Below, in pieces: positions 43,464-62,196 of a DNA stretch of 64,000 nt. The notes under the pieces were generated by a model. That model saw only the letters and a program-made list of their open reading frames with translations. It had not been told where the DNA came from and made no database searches. Origin of the DNA: Powellomyces hirtus (Eukaryota > Chytridiomycota > Chytridiomycetes > Spizellomycetales > Powellomycetaceae); the NCBI GenBank assembly GCA_025526995.1, contig JAHLKG010000006.1:1178001-1242000 (forward strand), written 5' to 3'. Positions within the stretch are counted from its first letter, which is position 1. Each line of letters opens with the position of its first letter. The translations under genes and the position numbers were made by a program.

Positions 43464-43940
43464 CTACTTTTTTGTCAGTGTTTGGATGTTAACCATGCCA
43501 GAGTAACGTCGAGGGGTTTTAATTTGCTTCCTGGTTGTAGCGCACAAAGTCCTCCTGAAGGTCGTATAGGTGTTACAAAGAATATTTCGCATCACTGGGA
43601 ACTCCTTTGCCAACAACGAGACTCGGTCCGTATCGTATTGACATTTAGGGAGTGGGACATCCACCCAGTTGTGTATGATATAGACATCTTCGTAGAGTCG
43701 TGCGCAAAGGTAGAACTTGACCGTGCCTCCGTTGACGTGAAAAAAGGGAATAACACCATCGTGATCCGGGTTTTTGTCGTGCATTGCGCAACTTTGCGCT
43801 TTTGATGCTTTCGCCAGATGAACTAAATCTTCCCTTGGATGGCAATGATGATCGGGGGCATCGTTTCCCGAGTTTTCGCCACACCCAAGCTCCACATTAT
43901 TGATATAACAAAGTGAAAGGGTAAGTAGGGGAATGCCCAA
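43464..43940 (-). CDS. Unassigned 158-residue open frame in AT-rich island
   Basis: Begins MGIPLLTLSLCYINNVELG and contains VIPFFHVNGGTVKFYLCARLY and RVSLLAKEFPVMRNILC, which read like a folded protein rather than random translation. Ends RYSGMVNIQTLTKK. No family recognised. It may be a decayed mobile-element or effector gene. Confidence 0.3.
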   Translation of the reverse strand: MGIPLLTLSLCYINNVELGCGENSGNDAPDHHCHPREDLVHLAKASKAQSCAMHDKNPDHDGVIPFFHVNGGTVKFYLCARLYEDVYIIHNWVDVPLPKCQYDTDRVSLLAKEFPVMRNILCNTYTTFRRTLCATTRKQIKTPRRYSGMVNIQTLTKK

Positions 43941-43951
43941 GAATGCGAGGT

Positions 43952-44236
43952 CTAAAGCGAGCTCATCGATATCGGTATGATTTCAAATTTTTTTGAGCAT
44001 GTCATTTGTGGTCGGAGCGAGAATTTCTGCTTGATTGAGGTTTTTGTTGAACTTATCATTCAATTCATTCAATGCGTTGTCAGATATGAAAGCGTGCACA
44101 CAAGGATCAGCAAAGTTTAGGATGCTCCACCATATGGAGTTGAAACGCCATTCTTCTTTTTTAGTTGGAATTGCTTGCACACTTTTAATGTGATTGAGCA
44201 CGGGTTTCCAAGAAGAGGCTTCGTAGGTAAGCCGCT
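43952..44236 (-). repeat. Direct duplication, copy 1
   Basis: About 285 bp that reappear at 44541-44816 with roughly 10 to 15 percent changes. The minus strand encodes the end of an unknown protein containing SSWKPVLNHIKSV, EEWRFNSIWWSILNFADP and ALNELNDKFNKNL. Confidence 0.8.
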
Positions 44237-44365
44237 TTGGCCCACAAAGTCTATGTTTCATTTTTTTCAAGGGCTTGAGGTGACAGCACTGACAACATTT
44301 TTTTTTTTTTCTTTTTTTTCTTTTTCCTCAAAAACATGCGAGATCTGACATGATTACTATCACTG

Positions 44366-44471
44366 ACATATCATTTTTTGGCATTTTTTTTGGCATTTTT
44401 GGCTTTGTTCACATTTCATTTTTTGGCATTTTTTTTGGCATTTTTGACTTTGTTCACATATCATTTTTTGC
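44366..44471 (+). repeat. 45-bp tandem repeat, 2.3 copies
   Basis: Units start at 44366, 44411 and 44456 (partial) with ACAT(A/T)TCATTTTTTGGCA. It lies between the two copies of the 285-bp duplication. Confidence 0.85.
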
Positions 44472-44540
44472 AATATCTCCCACATTCAAGACCAGGCACC
44501 GTTTTATTGATGCAATGCAGAATGTTTTAGAACCCAAGAT

Positions 44541-44816
44541 TTAAAGCAAGCTTACCAATATTAATATGATTTGAATTTTTTTTGAGCATGTCATTTGTGG
44601 TCGGAGCAAGAATTTCTGCTGAGGTTTTTGTTGAACTTATCATTCAATTCATTCAATGCGTCATCAGGTATGAAAGCGTGCACACAAGGATCAGCAAAGT
44701 TTAGAATGCTCCACCATGCAAGGTTGAAACGCCATTCTTCTTTTTTAGTTTAAATTGCGGGCACACTTTTAATGTGATTGAGCAAGAGTTTCCAAGAAGT
44801 GCCTTCGTCAGTAAGC
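44541..44816 (-). repeat. Direct duplication, copy 2
   Basis: Partner of 43952-44236. In this copy the frame is interrupted: after TSWKLLLNHIKSVPAI comes a TAA where copy 1 continues, so this copy is decayed. Confidence 0.8.
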
Positions 44817-45174
44817 ACCTTCGGGGCCGAGGGCTCTGATTTGCTATCAATCGGAGTGTTGACACAAGCACGTTTTGCCCCGTTGCATTTGCATTGACTT
44901 TGTCAGAGTCCACCTGCTTAATGGAGGTAGTCGCAGATTCTGCACTGGTTCTCGGCATTGCCTCATCACTGATGAGGAGAAAAAAGGACGCACTTCCTTT
45001 CATAATTCTGTCCCCTCCTAGAGAAATTTGTTTTGTTTTGTAAATGTTTTGAAACATGTTGGCGTTGTATGCCTTGAAGACACAAAAGTTTTTTGGACTG
45101 TAAAATATCAGTTCATCATACATCCATCGCAAGTCTGAGCGTGCCTTGGACGTAGTGAGTAAATGACAAGACAA
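44701..45174 (-). pseudogene. Decayed unknown gene in AT-rich island
   Basis: Open minus-strand frame starting MSCHLLTTSKARSDLRWMYD. Its 3' half shifts out of the frame that matches the duplicated block (VNTPIDSKSEPSAPKVLTDE lies in another frame), so at least one frameshift plus the TAA in copy 2 have broken the gene. Family unknown. Confidence 0.35.
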
Positions 45175-45843: not shown

Positions 45844-47088
45844 ATGGTAGGCAACGAAACAAGCCCCCGGTACACTTGTAGTATGTTAAGACGCCTAACG
45901 GGTCGGCAGACCCCAGGGTCCAATACGCTACAACGAGCTGTAGAACGTGCAGCAAAGAAAAGCGCACGAGTGCCTGGTGAATGGACATCACCAGACAATG
46001 GAGGGAAATCTGCCGGTAACGATACACTGGCAGAGCCAACACCTTTAAGTGTTGACGCCAACAAGGGCGACGACACATTGGAAGGGCGTACCCGAAACAT
46101 CGACTGACGCGATGGCAAGGTCGATACCCGTCCCCTATCAAGCAGTACGGATGATCACAGAACGATCAACTACAGTACTCCAGCGGCATTCCCAAGTGGG
46201 GAATCAGCGAACACCGTGCATGTCCGCCCGCGCGAGGCAGACGTGGATAGGATAGATCAGCTTGAGAATTCTCTAGCCCAACTAACGGAAATGCTCCAAA
46301 TGAAATGGCGCATGGATCAGGATGTGAATATCCCGGTCAACCCTCAGGTACGTACGGCGCAACGGTGCGTACGCACACCATCTCCCACTCGCAACAACGG
46401 GTTCGCTGCACCGTGGACAGAGTACAATCAGGAGATTGGAGCTCAACAGGAATACCAACGTTCTCCATTCGAACGCCGCCCTACATCACCGACATCGAGC
46501 ATACACAGCGTGACAACCAAAACCGTCGACAGTCTTGGTGCGAAGGCTTTCGTGGATGGAACACTGAAAGATATTGGATCTTACAATGGGGAAGCCAATA
46601 TGGTCAAACTTCGAACGTTCATCGAGAAGATTGAGACAGTTGTGAAGTACGAAATGGTTCCGCCCAAGTTTCTCGTGGATTTTGTGGCTACGAAACTCAC
46701 AGGATGGGCATACACTTGGTGGCAGTCGCTCTCACCAAGTAAAAGGAACGAAATTACGACGTGGCATGACTTTGAAGACGTTGATTCAGGAAGAACCAAC
46801 ACCGGTCTTAGGTCCGCCCTTCTGGTGCGGCTCGCGCCACAAAACCACACTAGGGATTCGCTGCAGAAATTACGGGAATTGCGTCCCAAAGGCCGCATGG
46901 ATGAGTACATCACTCAGTTCAACATGCTGGCATTTTCTCTGCCGAAGACACCGGATTACGTCCTTCAGGATTACTTCATCAACGCGCTAACACCAGACCT
47001 TGCGGCCTTGGTTCAGGCTAATGAAGAAAACAACAGATTTGAGCAGTTTACAGGCCGCTGCATCCAGGATCGCCGCCAACATGGCTAA
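45844..47088 (+). pseudogene. Copia gag
   Basis: The frame opens at ATG 45844, only 2 nt after the primer site (MVGNETSPRYTCSMLRRL), is broken by TGA at 46105-46107 (IDxRDG, likely from CGA) and continues through 46216 to 47088. The capsid part includes LGAKAFVDGTLKDIGSYNG, IETVVKYEMVPPKF, GWAYTWWQSL and MDEYITQFNMLAF, the retrotransposon Gag (UBN2/RetrotransGag) type. Near 47030 the matching frame jumps by +1 into the zinc-knuckle region, so the last 15 residues of this frame are spurious. Confidence 0.8.
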
Positions 47089-49110
47089 GAAACCTAGCGG
47101 GACCTCAACGGATACGCAACCAGGTGCCGCACACACTGACGCCTCTAAGAAACAAAAGGGTGGCAAGAACCACGGGGAGAAGTCAATGAACGGCAAGAAG
47201 GACAAGGAATCTACTCCATCAAACAAAGGCCAAACCCAAAAGTCAGGTTGTTGGGCCTGTGGAGACCCTAAACACCAAACACAGAAGTGCGAAGTGTTAA
47301 AGAAGTTCAAATCCGAGATGGAGAAGAACAAGACGAAGCAGTCATCTGATGGTGCTGTTAGCACAAATGCTGTGGAAGCATTACACGTCTGGGTCTGCCA
47401 AGAACAACTGTATGAAGCCCTCATCGACTCTGGCGCTACGGACCACATGACACCTCACAAAGCGACCTTGGACCACTCAACCGTGTACAGTGATGTCAGA
47501 GCTGTTATGCTTGCTGACAAAACATCACTACCCTCTACAGTTCAAGGTACAGTACAAGTAGAAGTTAGCAACTATCCAAATCCGCTCGAGTTGGGCGGAG
47601 TCCTGCATGTGCCAGGATTACGATGAGATCTCGTGTCGGTAGTGAAATGTAACGATCAAGGCGTTGACATGCTCTTCAAATCGAATGGAGACGTCATTTT
47701 CACGCGAGACGGCAAAGATATCGCCAAAGGCGTACGCCGCAACAACGTGTATTACCTGCAAGGTACGCTGCTGTCTGAAAGTCTGTGGACAGATTCAGAA
47801 GCATGCACTGTCGAAGTCTCTCCTACACGCGCTCATGCTCGTCTTGGACACGTTGGCAAACACGTCCTGGAGAAGATGGCATCGGTTACGGACGGTTGGT
47901 CCGTAGTGGGGGATCTAAGCGACTTCAAAAATTGTGAAGCCTGCGTGTTAGGAAAAGCCGCTCATCTTCCATTCTCCCTTGGTAACGTTGAAACCAGGGA
48001 GATCTGTGAGCTGATTCATTCAGACCTACAAGGACCATTTCGCATCCCTGGTTACGAAGGATCACGCTATTCGCTGGAGTTCATTGAACATACATCCAGA
48101 TACGCGACTGTTTTCCCTATTCCTTCAAAGGACTCAGCAGTCATACTCAACAAGTTTCTCATTTACAAGGCTTGGATTGAGAAACAGACTGACCGACACA
48201 TCAAGATTCTATGCACGGATCGAGGCACCGAATACTTTGGCGAGGTTCTAGAGTACCTATTGGAAAATGGTATCACACATCAAAAGTCCGCGGCCTATTC
48301 AAGTCAGCAAAACGGAATTGCCGAACGATGGCATCGCACGGCGCTGGACAGGGTCCGCGCCACCTTTGCAGATACAAAACTACCCCGAAGATTCTGGCCT
48401 GCTCTACTGATAGCGGCTGGATACATCTATTCCCTTACGTACAACCGCATCAACAAGAAGACACTGCATGAAATACTGTTTGGCCGGCGTCCTGGTGTTG
48501 CCCATCTTTGGCCTATTGGTTGCGTGGCGTATTCCATTCTAACAAGCAAAGGACGCAATAAAACGGGGAATCAAGCAAAGAAGGCTTACTTGGTAGGCTA
48601 TGCTCAACCCTCAGGTACCAAGGGGTATCTGGTTTGAGATCCTGTTACTGACAAGGTCAAAGTGTCACGAGACGTGATCTTCAAAGAAGACTTGGGACTC
48701 GAACCCAAATATCAGCAGGATCCAGCACATCTTGACCTTCTAGATGAGGAGAGTCAGGAGGATGACGTCAAATACACCGTGGAGGCGATTATTGACGAGC
48801 GCCGCAGTAAGGTGCACCCGAAAGAGTACTTGGTTAAGTGGGAGGGATATCAAGAACCTACCTGGGAGTCCCGACTTTCACTACTCAATACTACAGCATT
48901 GGATGACTGGGAGAATCAAGTAGCCGCGTACGATGTTGGCACACGACAAAATGACCCCATTGCTGCATACGCCGCCCGCGCACGGACTCAAGCAACGATC
49001 AACAAAGACGCCATGACATGGAAGCAAGCGATGAAAACACCTCAGAAGGAGGAATTTCTCAAGGCTGCACGCATTGAGTACCAATCCCTGGTCGACAACG
49101 GTACATGGGA
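47000..49110 (+). pseudogene. Copia pol, 5' part: zinc knuckle, protease, integrase, chromodomain
   Basis: One frame broken by TGA at 47624 and 48635. In order: zinc knuckle CWACGDPKHQTQKC (47252); aspartic protease LIDSGATDHMT (47424); integrase with ARLGHVGKH ... CEACVLGK zinc site, HSDLQGPF (first catalytic Asp), CTDRGTEYFG (second Asp) and QQNGIAERWHRT (Glu); then a chromodomain at about 48770-48915 with YTVEAIIDER, EYLVKWEGY and EPTWES, which keeps the three aromatic cage positions. The frame ends in the upstream part of the reverse transcriptase domain (EEFLKAARIEYQSLVDNGTW) where the gypsy element entered. Confidence 0.9.
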
Positions 49111-49385
49111 TGTAACAATACTAGGTCCGTTGCCAGAGTCTAGTCTTCTATTCAGGAATTCCCTATCTCTAATTCTACTGTAAGATCACTTCCTCTTGAA
49201 TGCGCCCTCGTCGGAGCATTCCTACTTTTCTTCTAGGCCGCGGAGCGGCCCTGGTCACGTGATGGCCATCCGTGGCCATCCCTGAGGTCTAGTACCCTTT
49301 GGGATGCTGACGCTAGCATCCATCTCGCGCGGGACCCTTCCCAACGCGTGTCTAGGCTTAGGCTGGTGAGCCACGCCTCATTACA
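49111..49385 (-). repeat. Gypsy LTR1 (3' LTR of copy A)
   Basis: 275 bp, TGTAA ... TTACA termini. Contains CACGTGATGGCC and CGCGGAGCGGCC palindromic words. Nearly identical to LTR3. Confidence 0.93.
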
Positions 49386-49394
49386 CCCCCCTTA
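49386..49394 (-). promoter_or_regulatory. Polypurine tract of copy A
   Basis: The minus strand reads TAAGGGGGG directly before LTR1, the expected plus-strand primer for reverse transcription. Confidence 0.75.
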
Positions 49395-49410
49395 GATTCG
49401 CGACTATCTC

Positions 49411-49662
49411 TTAGGCTTGAATCTCTTCAGCAAGGCGAAGGTTGCCTAAGCCGGGCGGCGGCGGGTTAACAGATGCTGACGTGGTTGTGGGAAGATGAGG
49501 CTGGAGAGGCAACCCTGGCGCGGGTCGCGTCGCGGTAGTCTCCGACGGGTAGTCTCCGCCCTTCGTGGTGCGCAAAATTGTCGGAAAGTCTATTTCTCTC
49601 TTCGCAGGGGCCCTAGATGAATCACGAGTAGCTTCCTCCATACGGATTTCAATAAGTAACAT
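49411..49662 (-). CDS. Small sense-strand ORF near 3' LTR, copy A
   Basis: 83 residues, MLLIEIRMEEATRDSSRAP at the start, Pro/Thr-rich middle, ends RLAEEIQA. The same frame, same length, occurs in copy B (54643-54894) with five substitutions and no indel. It is divergent from the antisense RING-like gene, 179 bp away. Function unknown; it may be a chance ORF preserved by the youth of the copies. Confidence 0.35.
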   Translation of the reverse strand: MLLIEIRMEEATRDSSRAPAKREIDFPTILRTTKGGDYPSETTATRPAPGLPLQPHLPTTTSASVNPPPPGLGNLRLAEEIQA

Positions 49663-49730
49663 CTGCTGTGCTCCATAGGGGATGAAACACTAACACCTGA
49701 ATTTCCGAGCGTTCCCAAGCAGGTCAAGCC

Positions 49731-49737
49731 TTTAAAA
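49731..49737 (+). promoter_or_regulatory. TATA-like box of antisense gene, copy A
   Basis: TTTAAAA lies 105 bp upstream of the ATG at 49842; copy B has it at 54963-54969. A pyrimidine stretch and a CA-rich leader follow in both. Confidence 0.45.
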
Positions 49738-49841
49738 TGGTACTGCCCGTTGGATCTCCCCCTCTTGCTCTTCTTTTCTTTGTAGCTCGACGAACTCACC
49801 ACACACACACACATACGCACACACACGCACACACACACACC

Positions 49842-50586
49842 ATGGCTGACACCCCCAACAACTCTCCTCCCCCCCCCGACACCACCACCACCACCATGGG
49901 CAAGCGCCGGCCCGCCCAACAACTTGCGAAAGGCGCAACCAAGCGGGCCCAGCCCGCCCGGGTAAGTAGGGGTCGGTGCTCATCCTTGGCTGTGGCAACT
50001 CGTCTCATGTTCCCCGTCTTCCCTTGTTGTCTCCAGGACCCCTCGGTCCATGAAAAGTCCACCCCCGAGAGGTCGGCCGGCTTGCCCGCCTGCTGGAAGT
50101 GCCGCCGCTTCCGCAAGAGCAAGATGTTTATGTCTGAATGCCACCATCTGGTGTGCCGGCCCTGCATTGTGGCGGCGGCCGACGACACGGTATGTTCCCC
50201 TTCGCTGAGAGGCGGCCTGATGTCTTCCTAACGGTATAGTTCCCTTGTTCCTTTGCTTTCCAGAACGACGGCCCTCAGGGCCAGTTGACGTGCGGCGCCC
50301 CCCACTGCAACTGGGTCCTCTTCTTTGCGGCCATCCCCGCCGGGTGCGAGTTCGCTGGCTGCAACCATGTCGGAGCGGACCTCCGCATGTTTCCATGCAA
50401 CCATCTCCACTGCATGGGCCACGTCCGCGCGTAAGTAGTACTCTTCGGCCTGCTGCTGTCTTACCTGACTAACTCAGCTCTCTTCGCAGCGAGATGAACA
50501 TGGCAAATTACACCCCCCTCCGGTGCAGGTTGGGCGACCGGTGCCACGGCAACCGGTGCCAATTCTCCTTCACCAAGATTGGTTGA
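49842..50586 (+). CDS. Antisense double RING-like zinc protein of the chromovirus, copy A
   Basis: Four exons, 49842-49961, 50037-50189, 50264-50430 and 50490-50586, 178 residues; introns of 75, 74 and 59 nt all have good GTAAGT/GTATGT donors and CAG acceptors. The N-terminus is Pro/Thr/Lys-rich with basic GKRRPAQQLAKGATKRAQ, a possible nuclear signal. A first RING-like unit is CWKC-x12-CHHLVCRPC (C-x2-C ... C-x-H-x2-C-x2-C) followed by CGAPHC. A second is CEFAGC ... CNHLHCMGH (again C-x-H-x2-C-x2-H). The tail has CRLGDRCHGNRC. It lies on the strand opposite to gag-pol, between pol and the 3' LTR. RING folds often act in ubiquitin transfer; here the spacing is atypical, so DNA, RNA or protein binding is equally possible. 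Confidence 0.7.
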
Positions 50587-50835
50587 TTAGTTCTCCCCCC
50601 CCTCCTTCTTGTACATACTTTCACTTGTTGTCTGTTGCTCCTTTGGAGCCTGGCCTTTGGCCCGTATAATCAAATTCAGTACCACAATCTCATCGCTGTA
50701 CTTGCCTTCTCATCGCTGTGCTCCCTTGAGTCTTGTGGCATTTCGTATGCGTCCGCTGTGTCCAATGTCACTTGGCTTCCTCCTGGCTATGGTGCTCATG
50801 GTAGATGCCCTGCATCACACTTCCCCGTTGGGAAG

Positions 50836-51433
50836 ACCGCCCAGCGGTTCCCCGGCCATCGTCCAACAATGCCGGTATCTCACCTAGTGAGGTCTACTGC
50901 ATTGCAGTCTTCGGCTCATCGCCCAGCGATCCCGGCGTCTTGCACTGCGAGATATGCTGCCCAGCAGCCTTCGGCCATCGTCCGACGATGCCGGCATCTC
51001 ACCTTGTGAGGTCCACTGCCTCGCAGTCTTCGGCCATTGTCCAACAATGCCGGCATCTCACCTCGTGAGGTCTACTGCCTCGCAGTCTTTGGCTCATTGC
51101 CCAGCGATCCCGGCATCTCGCCCAGCGAGGTATGTTGCCCAGCGACCTTCGGCCCATCGTCAAAAGATGCCGGTATCTTGGCCGAAACCTTTCTCTTCCC
51201 CTTCGCGTAGGTATGTACCACGGCCATGGTCCCTGCGGGTCTCGAGGTACGCCGCCATGCAAATCTGGTGCCGGTCACCTTGCATCGGCAAGCCTTCGGC
51301 TCATTGCCCAGCGATCCCGGCATCTCACCCAGTGAGGTATGCTGCCCAGCAGCCTTTGGCCATCGTCCAACGATGCCGGCATCTCGCCCAGCAAGGTATG
51401 CTGCCCAGCAGCCTCCGGCCATCGTCCAACGAT
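50836..51433. repeat. Hairpin array, copy A
   Basis: About 25 small inverted repeats in 598 bp, nearly all with a 5-bp stem and a 3-nt loop, spaced about 19-20 nt, with a higher-order period of 59-60 bp. Examples: ACCGC-CCA-GCGGT (50836), CTCAC-CTA-GTGAG (50879), ACTGC-ATT-GCAGT (50896), ATCGC-CCA-GCGAT (50918), GCTGC-CCA-GCAGC (50956), ATCGT-CCG-ACGAT (50977), ATTGT-CCA-ACAAT (51036), CTCGC-CCA-GCGAG (51117), GTTGC-CCA-GCGAC (51134). Stem arms change together between units while loops vary freely (CCA, CCG, CTC, CTT, CTA, ATT, ACT). A gap of about 100 bp (51169-51268) without hairpins interrupts the array. It lies between the stops of pol and the antisense gene. Confidence 0.9.
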
Positions 51434-51507
51434 GCCGGGATCTTGCACTATAATGTCCTCTACCTCAAGTAGCATCTCTCTTGTTAATTTACGGTACAGC
51501 TCGCTAT

Positions 51508-54342
51508 CTAGGTTCTCTTATGTCGCCTGGCCGCTAGCCTTTGGCCGCGGTCCTCTCTGGGGTGCTCCCGGAGCCATTCTTCCAATGCGGTCGTTCCCTT
51601 CACGTGTGCATACGGCTCCCACGTGTTCTGGGTGTTGTCGTAACCTGTCCACTTGACTAAGAACTGCTCGGTGTATCTGTGCCATCTGGCATTTAGGATC
51701 TTGTCCACTTGGTAGGTCTCCTGACCGTCTTTGTCCTTCTCGGGCTCAGGCGGGGCGGTGACCTGTCTGTACGGGGTACCGCCCGGGGCATGATAACGTC
51801 TCAGAATGCTGACATGAAAGACTGGGTGCAACCCGGTGAACTCCTTGGGTAGTTCGAGCTTGTAGGTGTCAGGATGCGGGCCCTTGCCGCGTACTGTGAA
51901 TGGCCCAATCCATTGTTCAGCCAGGTTTTTGTTCCTTGTGGTGACGCTGGTAATTGCAATACCCTCACGATGAAGTAAGACCTTGTCACCCTCTCGGTAT
52001 GCTTCCGTGTGCTTCTTGCGGTCATAGTACTTTGCCTGCTGGTCCTGTGCGTCTCGGAGCCGTTGCTGCACAATGCGACTCACGTCGGCAAATTCCTTAA
52101 TCCGTCTCTCCACGGCGGTTTGTGCCAATTGTCTTATCATCTCTCCGGGGTTAGGTGCTACCCATTGGTTCGGTACCCGGGGAACGCGGCCTAGGTCAAT
52201 CTCGAAAGGGGATAGTCCCGTCGACGTCTGCAGCGTTCGGTTATAGTTGTACTCGAGTGTGGGGAGTAAACTCTTCCAGTTGGAGCCGGCATAGTCAAGA
52301 AAGGGGCCCATGATTCCCTTGATCGTCTTGATGGCGTTCTCCGCCTTGCCATCGGTCTGTTGGTGTCATGCCAACAAGAGTTCTTGCTTGACGTCGAGTG
52401 CCTGCATGAGGTACCGCCAGAATTCTGATAGCCACTTGGGGTCCCGATCGCTCACAATGGTGTGGGGTAACCCCGTGTGGCGAAATGCCTGTTCCAGAAA
52501 GAGTTGAGCTGTCTCCGGAGCTGTAGCGTGTGTGTTAGTAGGTAGAAGTATCACGCGGCATGAAAGGTAGTCAACGATGAGGAGTACGGCGTCCGCCGTC
52601 TTGGTCGGTCTCTTGCCGGTGTGGTGCGAAGGGTTCTTCGTCACGTCGGGCTCTACCCGAGGTTCCCCCCCCCTTAGAGCCTGACGTGGGGAAGAATACA
52701 TCCATGCCGATTTGTTGCCAACGAGCGTCGGGGATTGGTAAGCTGCGGAGGAAGCCGATCTGCGCGGTTCGCTTGTGACGTTGGCAGGTAGGGCAGGTGC
52801 GGACATATTGGTACACATCACGTTCCATGTGGGGCCAGTAGTACAACTCCAGAAGTTTGGCGAGCGTCCGTTGGACACCGGAGTGACCACCGTTCGCGAG
52901 GGAGTCGTGATGAATCTGAAGGAGTGGCCCCCGCAAGCTGTCGGGGACGTACCGACGGTCATGGTACATCAAGAATCGGTGCGGAGGGGAGTCCACTGTC
53001 CGGAATCGGCGTGCATGGCCTGATAGGTTCTCCGGGGGACTGTTGATGGTTAGTAAGATGTTTTGGCCGAAATCATCCGATGTGAGCGCTTGGGTCCAGT
53101 CCGCATCGGTCGGCATGTGCGTCATGACGGGCTGCTCCGTCTGCACAATGGCGGTGACCACGTCAATCTTGGCCTGGCAGGTTGCACACTTGGGGGCGTA
53201 AGTCAGGTCGCGACTGAGGAAGTCGGCGATCGAATTCCATGTGCCGGGGAGGTATTCCAATGAGAAATCGAACTGTTGGAGGAACTAGACCTAGCCGGCT
53301 TGGTGACATGACAGGTGGGGTTGTTCCTGGAGGTAGATCAGGGATTTGTGGTCAACAAATGCCCGGAATGGGCAGCCGATGAGGTAATGGCGGTTGGCGC
53401 GTATGGATTTGACTAATCCCAGCAGTTCTTGTTCATGCACGGGGTATCGGGTCTCGGCGGGTTGCATCTTGCGGGAGTAGTATGTCACCAGGCAAAGTTG
53501 CGGAAGGTTGGCTAAGCCCGATTTGGTGGTTGGTAGTGGGTGAGGGTAAGGGAAATCCCCTTTGGCCGGCTGTGCCAGCCATCCGCCGTAAGCGTAGCCC
53601 AATGCGTCCGTGAACAAGTAGGTGTCGAGCGCCGGGTCGAAGTACGCTAGGGTGGGTGCCGAGGAGCATAATTCCTTTAAGCGATTGAACGCTCGGTCCT
53701 CCTCGTCACCCCACTGCCATGGGCGGTTGCCGGATTGCAGATTCGTTAGTGGTAGGGCAATCTGTGCATACTCGGGGATGTATTCCTTGACATAGTTGAG
53801 GAGGCCCATGAAGCTAAGGAGCTCCAGAGAGTTGGTCGGGCGAGGCCGTTACCGGACCGCGGTCACCTTGGAGAGGGCGATACTCAGGCCATCCTTGCTG
53901 ACTCGGTGGCCGCAGAACTCGACTTTGTCAACAGCCCATTGACATTTACTGGGTTTGACGTGAAGGCGATGTTCCGCCAAGGTCTTGAGGATCTTGTCAA
54001 CGTGCTGAATGTGCGAATTCATGTCGGTGCTGAATATGAGAATATTGTCGAGGTATGAGATCACGTAGGTGTCGTATTTGTCGCCCAAGAGTTTGTTGGT
54101 GAGTCGCTGGAATGTAGCAGGTGCATTAGTTAAGCCGAAAGGTAGAACATTGTATTCGAAGTGTCCAAAACGTGTTCGGAACGCTGTTTTCTCCCTATCT
54201 TCCGGTCGAATCATGATGCAGTGGTACGCGTCACGGATGTCGATCGCGGTAAATACCTGCATGTTGACAAGCCTGTCGCGCAGTTCCGAGAGGTTCGGAA
54301 GTGACGTGGCATCCTTGTGGGTCATCTTGTTCAGTGCCCGGA
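51508..54342 (-). pseudogene. Chromovirus pol of copy A, truncated and decayed
   Basis: Begins inside reverse transcriptase (YRALNK-equivalent junction with LTR2, then MTHKDATSLPNL), keeps the catalytic segment as YLDNILIF (second Asp changed to Asn; copy B has YLDDILIF), RNase H, integrase and chromodomain. Defects: TAA at 53849 and TGA at 52366 shared with copy B; two TAG codons near 53286-53295 where copy B has TGG and GAG; and one extra C in a C-run at about 52665-52675 that shifts the frame in integrase. The chromodomain frame (YQVDKILNARW, FLVKWTGY, NTWEPY) is intact to the stop at 51508. Confidence 0.85.
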
Positions 54343-54617
54343 TGTAATAATACTAGCTCCGTTGCCAGAGTCTAGTCTTCTATTCGGGAATTCCCTATGT
54401 CTAGTTCTACTGTAAGATCTCTAAGTCTTGAATGCGCCTTCGTCGGAGCATTCCTACTTTTCTTCTAGGCCGCGGAGCGGCCCTGGTCACGTGATGGCCA
54501 TCCGTGGCCATCCCTGAGGTCTAGTACCCTTCGGGATGCTGACACTAGCATCCATCTCGCGCGGGACCCCTCCCGACGCGTGTCTAGGCTTAGGCTGGTG
54601 AGCCACGCCTCATTACA
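54343..54617 (-). repeat. Gypsy LTR2 (middle LTR)
   Basis: 275 bp, TGTAA ... TTACA. It serves as 3' LTR of copy B and 5' LTR of copy A. It differs at about 13 sites from LTR1 and LTR3, for example TAGCTCC for TAGGTCC and TCTAAGTC for CTTCCTC. Confidence 0.93.
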
Positions 54618-54626
54618 CCCCCCTTA
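54618..54626 (-). promoter_or_regulatory. Polypurine tract of copy B
   Basis: TAAGGGGGG on the minus strand directly before LTR2. Confidence 0.75.
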
Positions 54627-54642
54627 GATTCGCGATTATCTC

Positions 54643-54894
54643 TTAGGCCCGAATCTCTTCAGCGAGGCGAAGCTTGCCTAAGCCGGGCGGCGGCGGGTTA
54701 ACGGATGCTGACGTGGTTGTGGGAAGATGAGGCTGGGGAGGCGGCCCTGGCGCGGGTCGCGTCGCGGTAGTCTCCAACGGGTAGTCTCCGCCCTTCGTGG
54801 TGCGTGAAATTGTCGGAAAGTCTATTTCTCTCTTTGCAGGGGCCCTAGATGAATCACGAGTAGCTTCCTCCATGCGGATTTCGATAAGTAACAT
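54643..54894 (-). CDS. Small sense-strand ORF near 3' LTR, copy B
   Basis: 83 residues, counterpart of 49411-49662, differing by five substitutions (for example ILRTT to ISRTT and GLPLQ to GPPPQ), no indel. See copy A entry for interpretation. Confidence 0.35.
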   Translation of the reverse strand: MLLIEIRMEEATRDSSRAPAKREIDFPTISRTTKGGDYPLETTATRPAPGPPPQPHLPTTTSASVNPPPPGLGKLRLAEEIRA

Positions 54895-54962
54895 CTGCTG
54901 CGCTCCGTAGGGGATGAAACACTAACACCTGAATTTCCGAGCGTTCCCAAGCAGGTCAAGCC

Positions 54963-54969
54963 TTTAAAA
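54963..54969 (+). promoter_or_regulatory. TATA-like box of antisense gene, copy B
   Basis: TTTAAAA 97 bp upstream of the ATG at 55066. Confidence 0.45.
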
Positions 54970-55065
54970 GGTACTGCCCGTTGAATCTCCCCCCTCTCGC
55001 TCTTCTTTCCTTTGTAGCCCGACACACACACATCACACACACATACATACATACATACAAACAAC

Positions 55066-55804
55066 ATGGCCGACGTTGCCAACAACTCTCCTCTCCCCTC
55101 TGACACCACCACCGCGGGCAAGCGCCGGCCCACCCAACAACTCGCAAAGGGCGCGACCAAGCGGGCCCAGCCCGCCCGGGTAAGTAGGGGTCGGTGCTCA
55201 TCCTCGGCTGTGGCAACTTGTCTCATGTTCCCCGTCTTCCCTTGTTGTCTCCAGGACCCCTCGGTCCATGAAAAGTCCACCCCCGAGAGGTCGGCCGACT
55301 TGCCCGCCTGCTGGAAGTGCCGCCACTTCCGCAAAAGCAAGATGTTTATGTCTGAATGCCACCATCTGGTGTGCCGGCCCTGCATCGTGGCGGCGGCCGA
55401 CGACACGGTATGTTCCCTTTTGCTGAGAGGCGGCCTGATGTCTTCCTAACGGTATAGTTCCCTTGTTCCTTTGCTTTCCAGAACGACGGCCCTCAGGGCC
55501 AGTTGACGTGCGGTGCCCCCCACTGCGACCGGGTCCTCTTCTTTGCGGCCATCCCCGCCGGGTGCCAGTTTGCTGGCTGCAACCATGTCGGAGCGGACCT
55601 CCGCATGTTTCCATGCAACCATCTCCACTGCATGGGCCACGTCCGCGGGTAAGTAGTACTCTTTGGCCTGCTGCTGTCTTACCTGACTAACTCAGCTCTC
55701 TTCGCAGCGAGATGAACGTGGCAAATTACACCCCCCTCCGGTGCGGGTTGGGCGACCGGTGCCACGGCAACCGGTGCCAATTCTTCTTCACCAAGATTGG
55801 TTGA
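55066..55804 (+). CDS. Antisense double RING-like zinc protein of the chromovirus, copy B
   Basis: Four exons, 55066-55179, 55255-55407, 55482-55648 and 55708-55804, 176 residues. Same exon phases and same intron lengths as copy A. All Cys and His of both RING-like units are kept; changes are outside them or conservative (CEFAGC to CQFAGC, HCNWV to HCDRV, CRLG to CGLG). The only length differences are two in-frame losses in the Pro/Thr-rich N-terminus. The leader differs from copy A by CA/ACAT repeat changes. Intact coding capacity contrasts with the nonsense codons in gag and pol of the same element. Confidence 0.7.
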
Positions 55805-56054: not shown

Positions 56055-56652
56055 ACAGCCCAGCGGTTCCCCGGCCATCGTCCAACAATGCCGGTATCTC
56101 ACCTAGTGAGGTCTACTGCCTTGCAGTCTTTGGCTCATCGCCCAGCGATCCCGGCGTCTTGCACTGCGAGATATGCTGCCCAGCAGCCTTCAGCCATCGT
56201 CCAACGATGCCGGCATCTCACCTTGTGAGGTCCACTGCCTCGCAGTCTTCGGCCATTGTCCAACAATGCCGGCATCTCACCTCGTGAGGTCTACTGCCTC
56301 GCAGTCTTTGGCTCATTGCCCAGCGATCCCGGCATCTTGCCCAGCGAGGTATGTTGCCCAGCGACCTTCAGCCCATCGTCAAACGATGCCGGTATCTTGG
56401 CCGAAGCCCTTCTCTTCCCCTTCGCGTAGGTATGTACCACGGCCATGGTCCCTGCGGGTCTCAAGGTACGCCGCCATGCAAATCTGGTGCCGGTCACCTT
56501 GCATTGGCAAGCCGTCGGCTCATTGCCCAGCGATCCCGGCATCTCACCCAGTGAGGTATGCTGCCCAGCAGCCTTTGGCCATCGTCCAACAATGCCGGCA
56601 TCTCGCCCAGCGAAGTATGCTGCCCAGCAGCCTCCGGCCATCGTCCAACGAT
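56055..56652. repeat. Hairpin array, copy B
   Basis: Same array as at 50836-51433, same unit order. Copy B repairs one broken hairpin of copy A (ATCGT-CAA-ACGAT against AAGAT), carries changed loops (ACTGC-CTT-GCAGT; ATCGT-CCA-ACGAT) and has a few single-arm changes (ACAGC-CCA-GCGGT, CTTGC-CCA-GCGAG). Confidence 0.9.
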
Positions 56653-56726
56653 GCCGGGATCTCGCACTATAATGTCCTCTACCTCAAGTAGCATCTCTCT
56701 TGTTAATTTACGGTACAGCTCGCTAT

Positions 56727-59700
56727 CTAGGTTCTCTTACATCGCCTGGCCGCTAGCCTTTGGCCGCGGTCCTCTCTGGGGTGCTCCCGGAGCCATTCTT
56801 CCAGTGCGGTCGTTCCCTTCACGTGTGCATACGGCTCCCACGTGTTCTGGGTGTTGTCGTAACCTGTCCACTTGACTAAGAACTGCTCGGTGTATCTGTG
56901 CCATCTGGCATTTAGGATCTTGTCCACTTGGTAGGTCTCCTGACCGTCTTCGTCCTTCTTGGGCTCAGGCGGGGCGGTGACCTGTCTGTACGGGGTACCG
57001 CCTGGGGCATGATAACGTCTCAGAATGCTGACATGAAAGACTGGGTGCAACCCGGTGAACTCCTTGGGTAGTTCGAGCTCGTAGGTGTCAGGATGCGGGC
57101 CCTTGCCGCGTACTGTGAATGGCCCAATCCATTGTTCAGCCAGCTTTTTGTTCCTTGTGGTGACGCTGGTAATTGCAATACCCTCACGATGAAGTAAGAC
57201 CTTGTCACCCTCTCGGTATGCTTCCGTGTGCTTCTTGCGGTCGTAGTACTTTGCCTGCTGGTCCTGTGCGTCTTGGAGCCGTTGCTGCACGATGCGACTC
57301 ACGTCGGCAAATTCCTTAATCCGTCTCTCCACGGCGGTTTGTGCCAATTGTCTTATCATCTCTCCGGGGTTAGGTGCTACCCATTGGTTCGGTACCCGGG
57401 GAACGCGGCCTAGGTCAATCTCGAAAGGGGATAGTCCCGTCGACGTCTGCGGCGTTCGGTTGTAGTTGTACTCGAGTGTGGGGAGTAAACTCTTCCAGTT
57501 GGAGCCGGCATAGTCAAGAAAGGGGCCCATGATTCCCTTGATCGTCTTGATGGCGTTCTCCGCCTTGCCGTCGGTCTGTTGGTGTCATGCCAACAAGAGT
57601 TCTTGCTTGACGTCGAGTGCCTGCATGAGGTACCGCCAGAATTCTGATAGCCACTTGGGGTCCCGATCGCTCACAATGGTGTGGGGTAACCCCGTGTGGC
57701 GAAATGCCTGTTCCAGAAAGAGTTGAGCTGTCTCCGGAGCTGTAGCGTGTGTGTTAGTAGGTAGAAGTATCACGCGGCATGAAAGGTAGTCAACGATGAG
57801 GAGTACGGCGTCCGCCGTCTTGGTCGGTCTCTCGCCGGTGTGGTGCAAAGGGTTCTTCGTCACGTCGGGCTCTACCCGAGGTTCCCCCCCCTTAGAGCCT
57901 GACGTGGGGAAGAATACATCCATGCCGATTTGTTGCCAACGAGCGTTGGGGATCGGTAAGCTGCGGAGGAAGCCGATCTGCGCGGTTCGCTTGTGACGTT
58001 GGCAGGTAGGGCAGGTGCGGACATATTGGTACACATCACGTTCCATGTGGGGCCAGTAGTACAACTCCAGAAGTTTGGCGAGCGTCCGTTGGACACCGGA
58101 GTGACCACCGTTCGCGAGGGAGTCGTGATGAATCTGAAGGAGTGGCCCCCGCAAGCTGTCGGGGACGTACCGACGGTCATGGTACATCAAGAATCGGTGC
58201 GGAGGGGAGTCCACTGTCCGGAATCGGTGTGCATGGCCGGATAGGTTCTCCAGGGGACTGTTGATGGTTAGTAAGATGTTTTGGCCGAAATCATCCGATG
58301 TGAGCGCTTGGGTCCAGTCCGCATCGGTCGGCATGTGCGTCATGACGGGCTGCTCTGTCTGCACAATGGCGGTGACCACGTCAATCTTGGCCTGGCAGGT
58401 TGCACACTTGGGGGCGTAAGTCGGGTCGCGACTGAGGAAGTCGGCGATCGAATTCCATGTGCCGGGGAGGTATTCCAATGAGAAATCAAACTGTTGGAGG
58501 AACTCGACCCAGCCGGCTTGGTGACGTGACAGGTGGGGTTGTTCCTGGAGGTAGATCAGAGATTTGTGGTCAACAAATGCGCGGAATGGGCAGCCGATGA
58601 GGTAATGGCGGTTGGCGCGTATGGATTTGACTAATCCCAGCAGTTTTTGTTCATGCACGGGGTATCGGGTCTCGGCGGGTTGCATCTTGCGGGAGTAGTA
58701 TGTCACCGGGCAAAGTTGCGGAAGGTTGGCTAAGCCCAATTTGGTGGTTGGTAGTGGGTGAGGGTAAGGGAAATCCCCTTTGGCCGGCTGTGCCAGCCAT
58801 CCGCCGTAAGCGTAGCCCAATGCGTCCGTGAACAAGTAGGTGTCGAGCGCCGGGTCGAAGTACGCTAGGGTTGGTGCCGAGGAGCATAATTCCTTTAAGC
58901 GATTGAACGCTCGGTCCCCCTCGTCACCCCACTGCCATGGGCGGTTGCCGGATTGCAGATTCGTTAGTGGTAGGGCAATTTGTGCATACTCGGGGATGTA
59001 TTCCTTGACATAGTTGAGGAGGCCCATGAAGCTAAGGAGCTCCAGAGAGTTGGTCGGGCGAGGCCGTTACCGGACCGCGGTCACCTTGGAGAGGGCGATA
59101 CTCAGGCCATCCTTGCTGACTCGGTGGCCGCAGAACTCGACTTTGTCAACAGCCCATTGACATTTACTGGGTTTGACGTGAAGGCGATGTTCCGCCAAGG
59201 TCTTGAGGATCTTGTCAACGTGCTGAATGTGCGAATTCATGTCGGTGCTGAATATGAGAATATCGTCAAGGTATGAGATCACGTAGGTGTCGTATTTGTC
59301 GCCCAAGAGTTTGTTGGTGAGTCGCTGGAATGTAGCAGGTGCATTAGTTAAGCCGAAAGGTAGAACATTGTATTCGAAGTGTCCAAAACGTGTTCGGAAT
59401 GCTGTTTTCTCCCTATCTTCCGGTCGGATCATGATGCAGTGGTACTCGTCGCGGATGTCGATCACGGTGAATACCCGCATGTTGACAAGCCTGTCGCGCA
59501 GCTCCGAGAGGTTCGGAAGTGGCGTGGCATCCTTGTGAGTCATCTTGTTCAGTGCCCGGTAGTCAATGCAGCAGCGTAGGCCGCCGTCCTTCTTTGGGGC
59601 AAATAGGACGGGCGCGCCCCACGGACTGCGAGAGTGTGAGATCTAACCCTTGTCCATTAAACGCTGCATCTGCTGGCCGAGCTTGTCCAGTTCGTCAGGG

Positions 59701-60656
59701 CTCAAATGCCGGAGTGGCTGCATCACGGGCTTCGAGCTGGGTTTGAGCCGAATGGTGAAATTGTCCTCGCCTCGGTCCGGAGGCATGCCTGACTGCTCGG
59801 TTAATAGCGTCGTGACGTATTTCTCTAGGGTCAGTCGGAGTGGATGGTCGGCTGCCAGCGCCTCTAGCGGGTCTTCTTGATCTGCCGCCTTGGCTTCAGT
59901 GTTGGTGTGGCGTCGTTCCTCCAAGATTGCCCTTTTCTTGGCGTCGACCGTCCGTACAAGTTGAGCCTCTGCGACTGGAATCGCATCTACAATGTGTACC
60001 TCGAAGACTCCAGTGATCTCGCCCTTCTTCATCAAGCGTTTCCATTGCTTGGCCGTGTAGATTCCCTCTGCATTGAGTGCTGGCTTCGCCGGCTGGAATC
60101 TGCGGGGCCGTACCTCTCGTGGGGAGAGTAGACGGGCGGCGCACGTGGACGGTGCTTCCCAGTGGCGGTTGGTTGATTTGGCTCGAAGGCTGAGGGTCTG
60201 GCCGTTGTGGTAGAACGTCATTGTTGGAAAGCCCCCTTGATCGAAAAGCCCTCGGACATCCAGCCCCAATATGAATGGCAAGCCCAGTATGGCATCGACC
60301 CTGATCGGCGCGACCATGAACGGTACGGTATCCTCCCGGTAGATGATCTTCTCCTCGGTGAACACTGAGAGGTCCCCACAGGTCATCTTTGTTGCCCCGT
60401 AGTTTCCCGCTCTGTCGCCCCACCGGACCTGCAGCGGAGTTGGAGAGGTGTAGGTCCGGAGGCCGTGTTTGGCGGCCCAAGTGTCGCTGATGATCAGGGT
60501 GTTACATCCGGTATCGATTAGGATGCGGGCAAAGTGCCCTTGTACCTTCCCGTGGACCACAAATGTCTTCCTGTGAATGCGGGGTCCCGGTCTGTCCGTG
60601 GGGATCTTGTCTTGCATCCGGGGTTGGGGTACTGAGATGGTGCAAGCGTTCAGCAC
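56727..60656 (-). pseudogene. Chromovirus pol of copy B
   Basis: Single frame in -1 relation to gag, 1,309 codons, with three in-frame stops (TAG 59643, TAA 59067, TGA 57585). Order: protease ILIDTGCNTLIIS; reverse transcriptase with SRSPWGAPVLFAPKKDGG, LPFGLTNAPATFQR and YLDDILIF; RNase H with YFDPALDTYLFTDALGYAYGG-type start and FVDHKSLIYL; integrase zinc site HHDSLANGGHSG ... CPTCQRHK, IVDYLSCRVILLP, VSDRDPKW and the Glu in GKAENAIKTI; then GPFTVRGKG, and a C-terminal chromodomain YQVDKILNARW, FLVKWTGYD, NTWEPYAHV. Catalytic residues are intact, so only the stops disable it. Confidence 0.9.
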
Positions 60657-61888
60657 CCGGGGCGAAAATCCGAGCTGTTGACTGAGCCCGCGTCGCTGGC
60701 CGCCTCGTCTCCGGACCCTTCGGTGATCTCTACAGGGGCGGCAAACGTCCTATGCTCACCGGTTTTACCTTTACTTGCTGGGCACCTACGGGCGTAATGC
60801 CCCTTGCCCCCGCAGTTGAAACATTCGTTGCGCTCACGGCGTTCGTTGTAGATGGTGCGCTCACGGCGTTCGTCGTAGATGGTGCGCTCACGGCGTGAAA
60901 TCCCTTGGTAGTTGTCCATACCGCGTGTGGGACGACCTGAGCCATAGGGGGTGTGGCATCCCCTTTCTCGTGCTTGATAGTTCCCTCAATGTACCTGAGC
61001 CGGCTGGACTGCAGCGTACTGACGTCTCCTCCCGTCGGGGGTTACCCGCGCGACATCGTCCGCATAGCCTCGAATCCTGTAGCATAGTAGAGCTTCATTC
61101 TGTAGCTTGGTGATCGGAATCTCGGCGCCATTATTCCTCATGATTGCGGCATAGCAGTGGTCACAAATGCGCTGGCCGACATGGTTGGTCGAGAATCCCG
61201 TCAAGAAATTGTCACGTTCTTGCCTTGGGGTAAGCCGCTCCTTGTCGTTGAGCGTCGCGATCTGGGCCCGAAGGGTATTGAACTTGGCGATATACTCCGA
61301 TATGCTATTGGTGAAAACCAACCGCTTCATCTTTGCTTCTGCGGTGTTTTGTAAGTTGGCGGGGTAGAAGCGGATGCAGAGGATCCTCGTGAATTCTTCC
61401 AATGTCGCGGGCTGGTCGCCGGCATCTCTGAGCATTTGCCACCATTCATTGGCGGTTTCCTTGAGGTACCCCGAGATGTGGTCGACGTCCCGGTGGTCCG
61501 TCCTGAAGTTGGTTGCCTCAAGGTCGCGCGTGTGGACCTTCAGGAACTCATCGACCTTCGACACCATTTCTTCACTGTTCCCTTTTCCGTCGAAATGTGT
61601 CAGCTGCTTGCGAAGGTTCTCGCGGCGTTCCTTCTCGGCTTGCATTTGTGCGCGGTTTTCTTCCGCCAGGATGATGTCGACGTGCGGTGTTGCAACCGCT
61701 GGTTGGACTGGAGTTGGAATCCTTGAGAGAAGGGCTTCGAAGCGGGCCTCTCCCATTGCAATCTGTTCCTGCAGTAGACGTTGGGTCTCCGCTAATTGTG
61801 CAGCCAACATTGCGACGGGGTTGTCGGTCGGTGTGTCGACTTCGGGTTCTCCTACCGCCATTGGGCTGTTCCTGGTGCTACGTGCCAT
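60650..61888 (-). pseudogene. Chromovirus gag of copy B
   Basis: ATG at 61888, 28 nt after the LTR3 boundary. Frame runs to TGA 60650, interrupted by TGA 60986 (VHxGNY, likely from CGA). It has an N-terminal coiled-coil-like stretch (AMLAAQLAETQRLLQEQ), a capsid with ISGYLKETANEWWQML and FYPANLQNTAEAKMKRL, short repeats RRERTIYDE, and a zinc knuckle CFNCGGKGHYARRC. Pol starts in the -1 frame with a few nt of overlap at 60656-60650. Confidence 0.88.
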
Positions 61889-61904
61889 TGTTGTCGTCTA
61901 CGGG

Positions 61905-61916: not shown

Positions 61917-62191
61917 TGTAACAATACTAGGTCCATTGCCAGAGTCTAGTCTTCTATTCGGGAATTCCCTATCTCTAATTCTACTGTAAGATCACTTCCT
62001 CTTGAATGCGCCCTCGTCGGAGCATTCCTACTTTTCTTCTAGGCCGCGGAGCGGCCCTGGTCACGTGATGGCCATCCGTGGCCATCCCTGAGGTCTAGTA
62101 CCCTTTGGGATGCTGACGCTAGCATCCATCTCGCGCGGGACCCTTCCCAACGCGTGTCTAGGCTTAGGCTGGTGAGCCACGCCTCATTACA
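61917..62191 (-). repeat. Gypsy LTR3 (5' LTR of copy B)
   Basis: 275 bp, TGTAA ... TTACA, followed by the target duplication TGGGA at 62192-62196. Nearly identical to LTR1. Confidence 0.93.
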
Positions 62192-62196
62192 TGGGA

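Follow-up and report, generated by a model that had tools for sequence, protein, structure and literature searches.

A conserved, spliced antisense gene with RING-like zinc-ligand patterns in a chromovirus family of Powellomyces hirtus

The 64,000-nucleotide stretch of Powellomyces hirtus DNA analysed here (the window) contains two copies of a short gene that lies antisense to gag-pol of a gypsy-type element, between pol and the 3′ LTR, with the 3′ LTRs upstream on the plus strand. Is this a gene of the retrotransposon, how has it kept its introns, and what could its product do? The initial annotation had described four exons with the same intron phases and lengths in both copies, as well as a TTTAAAA box, and the models agreed with this: the introns measure 75, 74 and 59 bp, have phases 0, 0 and 2 in each copy, and are bounded by GT..AG in six out of six cases. 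Copies 1 and 2 are both intact. At 69 gene loci fetched from the genome, a TTTAAAA sequence was found 60–200 nt ahead of the start in 54. We also considered intron 1 as coding sequence, as its 75 nt are open in both window copies, but this reading was rejected since the intron is 59 nt long in the second gene type (type B, see below).

The initial annotation assigned the gene to two gypsy copies. The gene is indeed present in both, between pol and a 3′ LTR, but these are not two complete elements: both copies lie inside one composite insertion with three LTRs and a TGGGA repeat, which itself sits within a copia-like element. LTR1 and LTR3 share 99.3% identity and have the 5-bp direct repeat TGGGA on their outer sides, showing that they bound one insertion; LTR2 is probably the 3′ LTR of a second, recombined element. 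The element is a chromovirus, with reverse transcriptase (RT), RNase H, integrase and a terminal chromo domain of pol (PF00385, E 8.2e-12, Pfam), 275-bp LTRs, a polypurine tract whose position fits the minus-strand orientation, and the short target duplication TGGGA. The coordinates are listed in Table 1.

Table 1 Features of the composite chromovirus insertion and its antisense genes (window positions)
Feature	Position	Strand	Remarks
LTR1	49111-49385	-	3′ LTR of outer element, TGGGA before; 99.3% identical to LTR3
TTTAAAA box, copy 1	49731-49737	+	putative promoter element
Antisense accessory gene copy 1, type A (L012)	49842-50586	+	exons 49842-49961, 50037-50189, 50264-50430, 50490-50586; 178 aa
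59-bp tandem repeat array, copy 1	50853-51178	.	between gene stop and pol
Further short array, copy 1	51291-51443		
pol 3′ part beside copy 1	51508-54341	-	cut off by LTR2; copy 1 96.8% identical to copy 2 over 49108-54341
LTR2	54343-54617	-	internal 3′ LTR; ~95% identical to LTR1 and to LTR3
Polypurine tract	54618-54626	-	adjoins 3′ LTR; CCCCCCTTA on + strand; read directly from sequence
TTTAAAA box, copy 2	54963-54969	+	putative promoter element; A/B divergence island begins about here
Antisense accessory gene copy 2, type A (L001)	55066-55804	+	exons 55066-55179, 55255-55407, 55482-55648, 55708-55804; 176 aa
59-bp tandem repeat array, copy 2	56072-56397	.	
Further short array, copy 2	56536-56665		
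gag-pol of chromovirus	56727-61897	-	several open stretches; Pfam domains
SH3-like + chromo domain	56727-57584	-	
RNase H/integrase	57585-59066	-	
RT	59067-59642	-	
Protease	59643-60749	-	
gag	60986-61897	-	
LTR3	61917-62191	-	5′ LTR, then TGGGA

The gene is not confined to the window. A genome search with exon 2 gave 90 matches (E ≤ 1), and a DNA search for gene copies gave 40 scored rows of 77 candidates. For the pairing of gene and pol we used 90 of 136 pol rows and set aside 12 that came from shorter fragments and 34 whose identity was 44% or lower. Beyond pol, at a distance of 0.9–1.9 kb (median 1465 bp), the antisense gene was found in 75 of the 90 rows; the control, a gene in sense orientation beyond pol, occurred once. 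As to whether the gene always lies beside parts of the element, 75 of the 90 exon-2 matches are beside pol, six more were found with an LTR, two with a pol fragment and one with the element leader and spacer. Of the 90 pol rows, 15 had no gene at the expected place, which for one of them (C53) is past the contig end. Among the 69 fetched loci an LTR match was present in 64 and an opposite-strand match to pol-C in 63. Among the 84 of 90 exon-2 matches checked (E ≤ 1, this genome), none proved to be an ordinary host gene.

An ATG, an open frame and a single terminal stop were present in 45 of the 69 copies (46 rows without the ATG requirement), and all six splice sites in 35 of those 45; the other 24 copies fail the ATG/frame/stop rule. 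The initial annotation had proposed that a gene in this orientation can move with its introns. Among the 69 copies examined, including four truncated ones, none had precisely lost an intron, which is what one would predict if splicing of the sense genomic RNA at antisense sites is impossible. The three introns were kept through the spread of the family.

Selection on the spliced frame was analysed in exons 2–4; exon 1 contains a proline/threonine tract that shifts, and for this reason it did not enter the N/S counts or those for L068. Comparison of L068 with L001 gave a dN/dS of 0.162 (0.090–0.293 in 300 bootstraps), and pol-C of the same pair gave 0.140. L068 is a broken copy with a stop in exon 2, and part of its divergence therefore accrued without selection. 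For the same pair, four of the five other frames gave 1.27–1.65, and the fifth (minus, offset 1) 0.31, a low value that probably stems from coinciding third positions. Among 33 distinct intact copies (L033 and L053 were left out as identical to L034 and L054), pairwise dN/dS fell from 1.16 at dS <0.03 to 0.25 at dS 0.15–0.3. In 63 copies (six of the 69 loci, L041, L044, L050, L067, L068 and L069, were left out), the selection figures were 1.07 for changes in one copy, 1.07 for those in two or three and 0.46 for those in four or more; in the 35 intact copies they were 1.36, 0.54 and 0.54, respectively. The divergence of intron 3 among type-A copies is as low as that of exons 3 and 4. That the gene is coding is supported by the dN/dS of 0.16, by exon lengths common to types A and B despite differing introns, and by a GenBank protein with that splicing, the hypothetical protein DFJ77DRAFT_512327 (P0002), whose gap-free alignment with the L075 model shows 96.6% identity over 178 amino acids. 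With 90 exon-2 matches and frame-specific purifying selection, the feature is beyond chance. Present in most family copies, antisense to gag-pol between pol and the 3′ LTR, and conserved like other element proteins, it is a protein-coding accessory gene of the Powellomyces hirtus chromovirus family, an antisense additional ORF of the class located between pol and the 3′ LTR (aORF-3R), and purifying selection acts on it with about the same strength as on pol.

The two C-x-H-x2-C-x2-C/H units noted initially were confirmed, and each forms part of a larger RING-like set of eight ligands. Module 1 of copy 1 reads C59-x2-C62-x12-C75-x-H77-x2-C80-x2-C83-x17-C101-x4-C106, and module 2 reads C119-x4-C124-x11-C136-x-H138-x2-C141-x2-H144-x14-C159-x5-C165 (plus C170). 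Judged from sequence, both sets are conserved and have the cross-brace order, with x4 and x5 in the last pair; the usual RING spacing C7-x2-C8 is absent from both. Each of the 16 ligand positions is kept in at least 91% of the 46 ORF rows; within type A, ligand conservation hardly exceeds the average over the exon 2–4 columns as a whole (0.94). When two A proteins were compared with two B proteins, 15 of the 16 ligands were unchanged; the exception is H144, which is missing from one B row. No RING Pfam profile exceeded its curated cut-off: the top match, zf-RING_5, reached 16.7 bits (E 0.007) versus 27.9, and zf-C3HC4 16.4 versus 21. The best PDB match was the RING of PCGF5 (4s3o; E 0.0028, or 0.019 with an A+B profile), followed by RING2 (2h0d; E 0.15–0.39). 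The likeness to these RINGs is weak and limited to module 1, module 2 being unmatched, and the last ligand pair of the chytrid protein is C-x4-C. AlphaFold2 yielded no usable model, either for P0001 (a GenBank protein discussed below) alone (mean pLDDT 35.6) or for P0002, P0003 and P0001 with three window exon readings (36.5). A resemblance of the N-terminus to histone tails was considered and dropped, as it matched none of 177635 distinct PDB sequences at E ≤ 10. By eye, we noticed a conserved basic stretch, a candidate nuclear motif.

Type B is a gene form 54% identical to type A. Its exons were searched for with the guide motifs CWKC, RPC and FSFT, which gave models in five of ten loci; where alternative acceptors existed, the longest reading was taken, which is the reading shown by P0002. 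The five genes have exons of 120, 153, 167 and 97 nt and introns of 59, 74–76 and 62 nt. When two type-B elements were compared with type A part by part, pol-C was 96% and the LTR 92% identical, versus 62–68% for the gene exons and 48–56% for the introns; dS was 0.87–1.16 in the gene versus 0.09 in pol-C. Gene and pol trees of 12 chosen elements conflict (AU tests, p = 1.6e-53 and 2.6e-4), and one locus, L072, has a B-like gene beside a pol only 80% identical to the main family. The transcription unit, which extends roughly from the TTTAAAA box to the stop, therefore comes in a minimum of two old allelic forms (A and B) within almost identical backbones, with conflicting gene and pol histories. 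It follows that the unit behaves as an exchangeable cassette, and two very old gene versions appear to have been swapped between otherwise near-identical elements.

We put a probability of roughly 0.7 on the following reading as a whole, its last step, the way the protein acts, being less likely than not: the gene is a conserved aORF-3R that keeps its introns through its antisense position, is exchanged as a cassette and encodes a RING-like protein that may be nuclear and favour the element. Its introns would persist because the genomic RNA contains only the complement of their splice sites, and exchange of the alleles could come about by template switching between co-packaged RNAs. Transcription of the mRNA would begin at a promoter that belongs to the gene and is situated near the 3′ LTR, and the protein might enter the nucleus via the conserved basic stretch, where its two RING-like zinc modules would bind a host or element protein to the element's advantage. 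As to the mode, our best guess, a tentative one, is that the protein counteracts silencing or restriction, either as an adaptor or in the manner of a ubiquitin ligase. An opposite role, that the protein limits its own element by copy-number control or exclusion of relatives, with A and B as exclusion groups under frequency-dependent selection, is unlikely. It would suit the two old alleles in one backbone and the gene's presence beside 75 of the 90 pol rows, and the antisense transcript could pair with genomic RNA as dsRNA, a possibility raised where PMC7264820 deals with such transcripts. However, a self-limiting gene is hard to keep under purifying selection unless crowding is costly, and only two well-populated allele classes were seen.

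Returning to the cassette, the A/B difference could instead reflect fast adaptive change in place without any exchange, given that the proteins differ by ~46% while pol differs little. We consider this very improbable, as introns and synonymous sites have diverged like those of old alleles and the B-like gene of L072 accompanies a distant pol. A different source is suggested by P0001, which lies on a record of 21,205 bases and bears the GenBank name 'oncoid, Powellomyces chytrid fungus MELD virus 1'; going by this name, the element would have acquired the gene from a midsize linear DNA (MELD) virus. But P0001 is a type-A gene with introns 1 and 2 read through, 75 of the 90 exon-2 matches in this genome lie beside chromovirus pol, and a chromovirus piece inside that record would account for the name, so that we regard a viral source as highly unlikely; the name itself seems to be based on an unspliced reading of this gene. 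No relatives outside Powellomyces were found among the 8000 candidates listed per protein search, which threonine-rich words may crowd, or among 130 candidates obtained with query residues 40–178. In viral contigs, a set that may lack entries from this genome or a close one, two stretches matched a pattern, neither encoding a relative. A search of the fungus's own genome for a viral B-type DNA polymerase gave no matches, as did its controls, and is hence uninformative.

The RING-like pattern and the spliceosomal introns look host-derived, and the gene may well descend ultimately from one of a host or a virus. That the element merely transports a captured host RING gene, a passenger of no benefit to it, is nevertheless scarcely credible: there is no host paralogue among the exon-2 matches checked, the gene accompanies most pol rows and is constrained as pol is, its two alleles have a dS near 1, and neither a dN/dS near 1 in active elements nor a single-copy host orthologue was seen. 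That the antisense RNA itself matters, as a regulatory RNA or siRNA source with the ORF incidental, accords with proposals for retrotransposon antisense transcripts in the relevant passages of PMC7264820, but is largely refuted by selection that tracks the spliced frame (0.16 versus 1.27–1.65 in four of the other frames and 0.31 in the fifth) and by A/B exon lengths that are kept while introns are not.

The initial annotation knew of no described chromovirus accessory gene of this kind. Zhao et al. reportedly described in 2011 the gene brtn, antisense in Boty-like elements of Botrytis cinerea. HBZ of the retrovirus HTLV-1 is likewise an antisense gene near the 3′ LTR with a spliced mRNA and a nuclear regulator as product; it differs from the chytrid gene in encoding a bZIP protein and in having its antisense promoter inside the 3′ LTR. 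Antisense retroviral genes are also mentioned in PMC11963269. Boty-like elements carry a CHROMO domain together with brtn, as stated in PMC4227169, and section 5 of PMC7264820 lists Boty with elements bearing antisense ORFs between pol and the 3′ LTR; by these descriptions, which are the basis of our comparison, brtn and the chytrid gene are alike in being additional genes carried antisense by fungal gypsy elements with a CHROMO domain. Antisense aORF-3R is also known from Grande, RIRE2 and Retand. The claim of no precedent therefore fails. A plant-element antisense gene from a 2013 study, as summarized in PMC7264820, shares the antisense position between pol and the 3′ LTR, has a promoter upstream of the gene and encodes a nuclear protein; it differs in its plant host, and that summary mentions neither a RING-like nature nor kept introns. 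According to PMC7264820, such ORFs have not been described as clearly similar to other proteins. The TRP28 antisense ORFs of plant Retand elements differ in being ORFs rather than a four-exon gene, in belonging to a non-chromovirus and in having another domain, with no introns mentioned in PMC11963269. This Powellomyces gene family was not described in the titles and abstract openings covered by our literature search. New here are the old A and B alleles in nearly one backbone, with conflicting gene and pol trees.

That LTR retrotransposons have antisense accessory genes is known, but what these genes do is not, according to the passages cited above from PMC7264820 and PMC11963269. The gene of Powellomyces hirtus is a compact and conserved case: it has four exons and occurs in a fungal genome of small size, in two allelic forms and in dozens of intact copies. 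This opens direct questions about the binding partner, the need for the gene in movement and why two alleles persist. It further demonstrates that spliceosomal introns can be kept through retrotransposon spread when antisense. It also suggests that an accessory unit, with fairly sharp limits, has passed between families of elements. A more far-reaching reading, which we consider doubtful, is that a chromovirus lineage carries a complete transcription unit, introns included, whose product is a nuclear tandem-RING protein acting against host silencing or determining the compatibility of elements, with two ancient alleles held by balancing selection and passed as a promoter-to-stop cassette between element families. 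If this is true, the unit would behave like a mobile resistance or identity gene inside retrotransposons.

Both four-exon antisense genes proposed in the initial annotation have good exon models in terms of splice sites, lengths and phases: all six introns are of the GT..AG type, 75, 74 and 59 bp long and in phases 0, 0 and 2, and the predicted proteins comprise 178 aa (copy 1) and 176 aa (copy 2). The chromovirus gag-pol does lie opposite to them, on the minus strand, with a chromo domain at its end (PF00385, E 8.2e-12), and the 3' LTR is bordered towards the gene by CCCCCCTTA, which in minus-strand orientation reads as a polypurine tract. However, the proposed two gypsy copies are not two complete elements: since LTR1 and LTR3 are 99.3% identical and have TGGGA flanks, while LTR2 is ~95% like them, the locus is a single outer insertion whose central part would have gained another 3' half, probably through a nested insertion and subsequent recombination. 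The frames on either side suggest that the chromovirus insertion, with its TGGGA duplication, lies in a Ty1/copia-like element, interrupting its gag-like and RVT_2 frames. In the plant element Retand, tandem arrays are also frequent in the region that holds the 59-bp arrays here. A single open frame runs from exon 1 of copy 1 through the first intron and across exon 2 (49842-50189); intron 1 is 75 nt in this form of the gene (type A) versus 59 nt in the second form (type B). The N-terminal proline/threonine codon tract (49842-49900, and homologous starts) differs in length among copies, and several go out of frame there.

Features of the chromovirus locus and its surroundings
Feature	Position	Remark
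C2 + MUN domain frames	19483-23315	presumably a Munc13-like host gene
Direct repeats	43931-44824	205 and 101 nt, ~585 bp spacing
gag-like frame	46108-47088	Ty1/copia-like element, left of the insertion
LTR1	49111-49385	outer
LTR2	54343-54617	
LTR3	61917-62191	outer
59-bp tandem repeat arrays	50853-51178, 51291-51443, 56072-56397, 56536-56665	between antisense gene and pol
RVT_2 frame	62168-63793	Ty1/copia-like element, right of the insertion

Powellomyces is a chytrid genus, and the gene is repeated in the genome of P. hirtus. A DNA search gave 40 scored rows among 77 candidates, and a protein search with exon 2 gave 90 matches at E≤1. We fetched 69 loci that hold either the main form or one of its two divergent A-like relatives (L068, L069), and 10 more from the remaining matches. 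An LTR match was found at 64 of the 69 loci and an opposite-strand match to the C-terminal part of pol (pol-C) at 63. By coordinates, the gene lay antisense 0.9-1.9 kb beyond pol for 75 of the 90 pol rows used (136 returned), and 75 of the 90 exon-2 matches were placed in this way; the sense-orientation control over the same interval gave one gene match. Nine of the 15 unpaired gene matches, the ones looked at, were traced to element sequence: an LTR at six (L030, L041, L043, L052, L067, L069), nearby pol fragments outside the pol rows used at two (C10:567193, C22:363387), and the leader and spacer of the element at C2:1611249 (L079). Fifteen pol rows were unpaired with a gene, one of them (on C53) too close to the contig end to show it. 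L068 (G000:C5:1505439) and L069 (G000:C4:575044) form a third, older A-like subgroup with a common stop at the same exon-2 codon. Further pol-C matches of 42-43% identity, spaced by ~4760 bases (G000:C34:4436, 9196, 13956, 18719), seem to make up a tandem array that belongs to a different chromovirus-like family.

Exon-2 matches at 41-57% identity revealed type B, for which a full four-exon model was obtained at five loci (exons 120/153/167/97, introns 59/74-76/62). Its exon lengths equal those of copy 1 exactly; exon 1 of copy 2 is 114. Two annotated, predicted GenBank proteins of P. hirtus belong here: the hypothetical protein P0002 has the type B splicing pattern and aligns gaplessly with the L075 model at 96.6% identity across 178 aa, and P0003 is an exact match to residues 1-105 of the L078 model.

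The ATG, frame and single terminal stop were kept in 45 of the 69 copies, and all six splice sites in 35 of these 45. Pairwise dN/dS for exons 2-4 of 33 distinct intact copies fell from 1.16 to 0.25 with growing distance, as expected if active elements are under selection and decay after insertion. In 63 copies, N/S was 1.07 for changes seen once, 1.07 for those in two or three copies and 0.46 for those in at least four; the values for 35 intact copies were 1.36, 0.54 and 0.54. Diversity at codon positions 1, 2 and 3 of the 63 copies was 0.055, 0.034 and 0.079, and that of intron interiors 0.067, with intron 3 alone (0.042) matching the low diversity of exons 3 and 4. Comparison of copy 2 with the diverged and itself broken L068 gave dN 0.112, dS 0.691 and a ratio of 0.162 (bootstrap 0.090-0.293), with 0.140 for pol-C of the same pair; among the other five frames, four gave 1.27-1.65 and one minus frame 0.31. 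The antisense gene is a conserved accessory gene, predicted to be spliced.

In keeping with the proposal that the introns survive retrotransposition, precise intron loss was found in none of the 69 copies, four of which were truncated (L044, L050, L067, L069) and several of which had a mutated splice site. Given the known retrotransposon cycle, this retention fits antisense carriage, in which the genomic RNA would show the splice sites of the gene in reverse and the introns would be kept.

At every one of the 16 RING-type ligand sites, at least 91% of the 46 ORF rows retain the ligand (mean of all exon 2-4 columns, 0.94). The comparison of types is stronger evidence: 15 of the 16 ligands do not vary among the four proteins compared (two of each type), in which about half of all positions differ, and H144 (copy 1 numbering) is missing in one B row. 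The first module matched PDB RING structures weakly (PCGF5, E 0.0028; RING2, E 0.15; PCGF5 with the A+B profile, E 0.019). Scores against Pfam RING profiles stayed under the curated cut-offs. From its sequence, the predicted product may fairly be called a tandem RING-like zinc protein, though not yet a ubiquitin ligase. A basic stretch, recognized by eye (GKRRPAQQLAKGATKR in A, AKRRSNQQLQKAAAKK in B), resembles a bipartite nuclear signal; our best guess is that the protein would benefit the element as an adaptor or ligase of the RING type acting in the nucleus.

A single protein came back from the first homologue search, the 'oncoid' of 'Powellomyces chytrid fungus MELD virus 1' (P0001). It is probably an unspliced reading of the type A gene labelled as a DNA-virus protein, and the most likely reason for its viral name would be that the GenBank record behind it contains part of a chromovirus.

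The initial annotation knew of no described chromovirus gene of this kind, but such accessory genes are known in fungi, including a chromodomain element: Boty-like elements are described with a CHROMO domain (PMC4227169) and carry brtn in antisense (Zhao et al. 2011, as cited). Antisense ORFs between pol and the 3' LTR (aORF-3R) are reported for Grande, RIRE2, Retand, PvRetro13 and Boty (PMC7264820; PMC11963269). The open-licence papers that we searched yielded no description of an antisense gene that has several exons and keeps its introns, of a tandem RING-like product, or of old alleles exchanged as a cassette.

Proteins of types A and B share 52-55% identity, whereas the surrounding elements hardly differ. 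Set against two B elements (C4, C29) part by part, the element of the window showed 92% identity in its LTR, 84-88% between the LTR and the TTTAAAA box, and 65% from there to the ATG. Exons gave 62-68% and introns 48-56%; directly past the stop identity was 71-84%, rising to 91-95% across the spacer and to 96% for pol-C. The control, copy 1, gave at least 84% in all parts. Between A and B, dS was 0.87-1.16 for the gene versus ~0.09 for pol-C. Fast adaptive protein change is an unlikely cause, since it would not lift dS and intron divergence about tenfold. In unrooted trees of 12 chosen elements, L072 grouped with B genes in the gene tree (support 100) and with L071 in the pol tree (support 100), where A and B elements were intermixed with low support inside the main family; pol of L071 and L072 is 77-80% identical to that family. 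Gene and pol data each rejected the other's tree in AU tests (p = 1.6e-53 and 2.6e-4). The simplest route to the proposed exchange of the two alleles as a cassette would be template switching. The presence of two old alleles within one backbone is the most unexpected result of this analysis.
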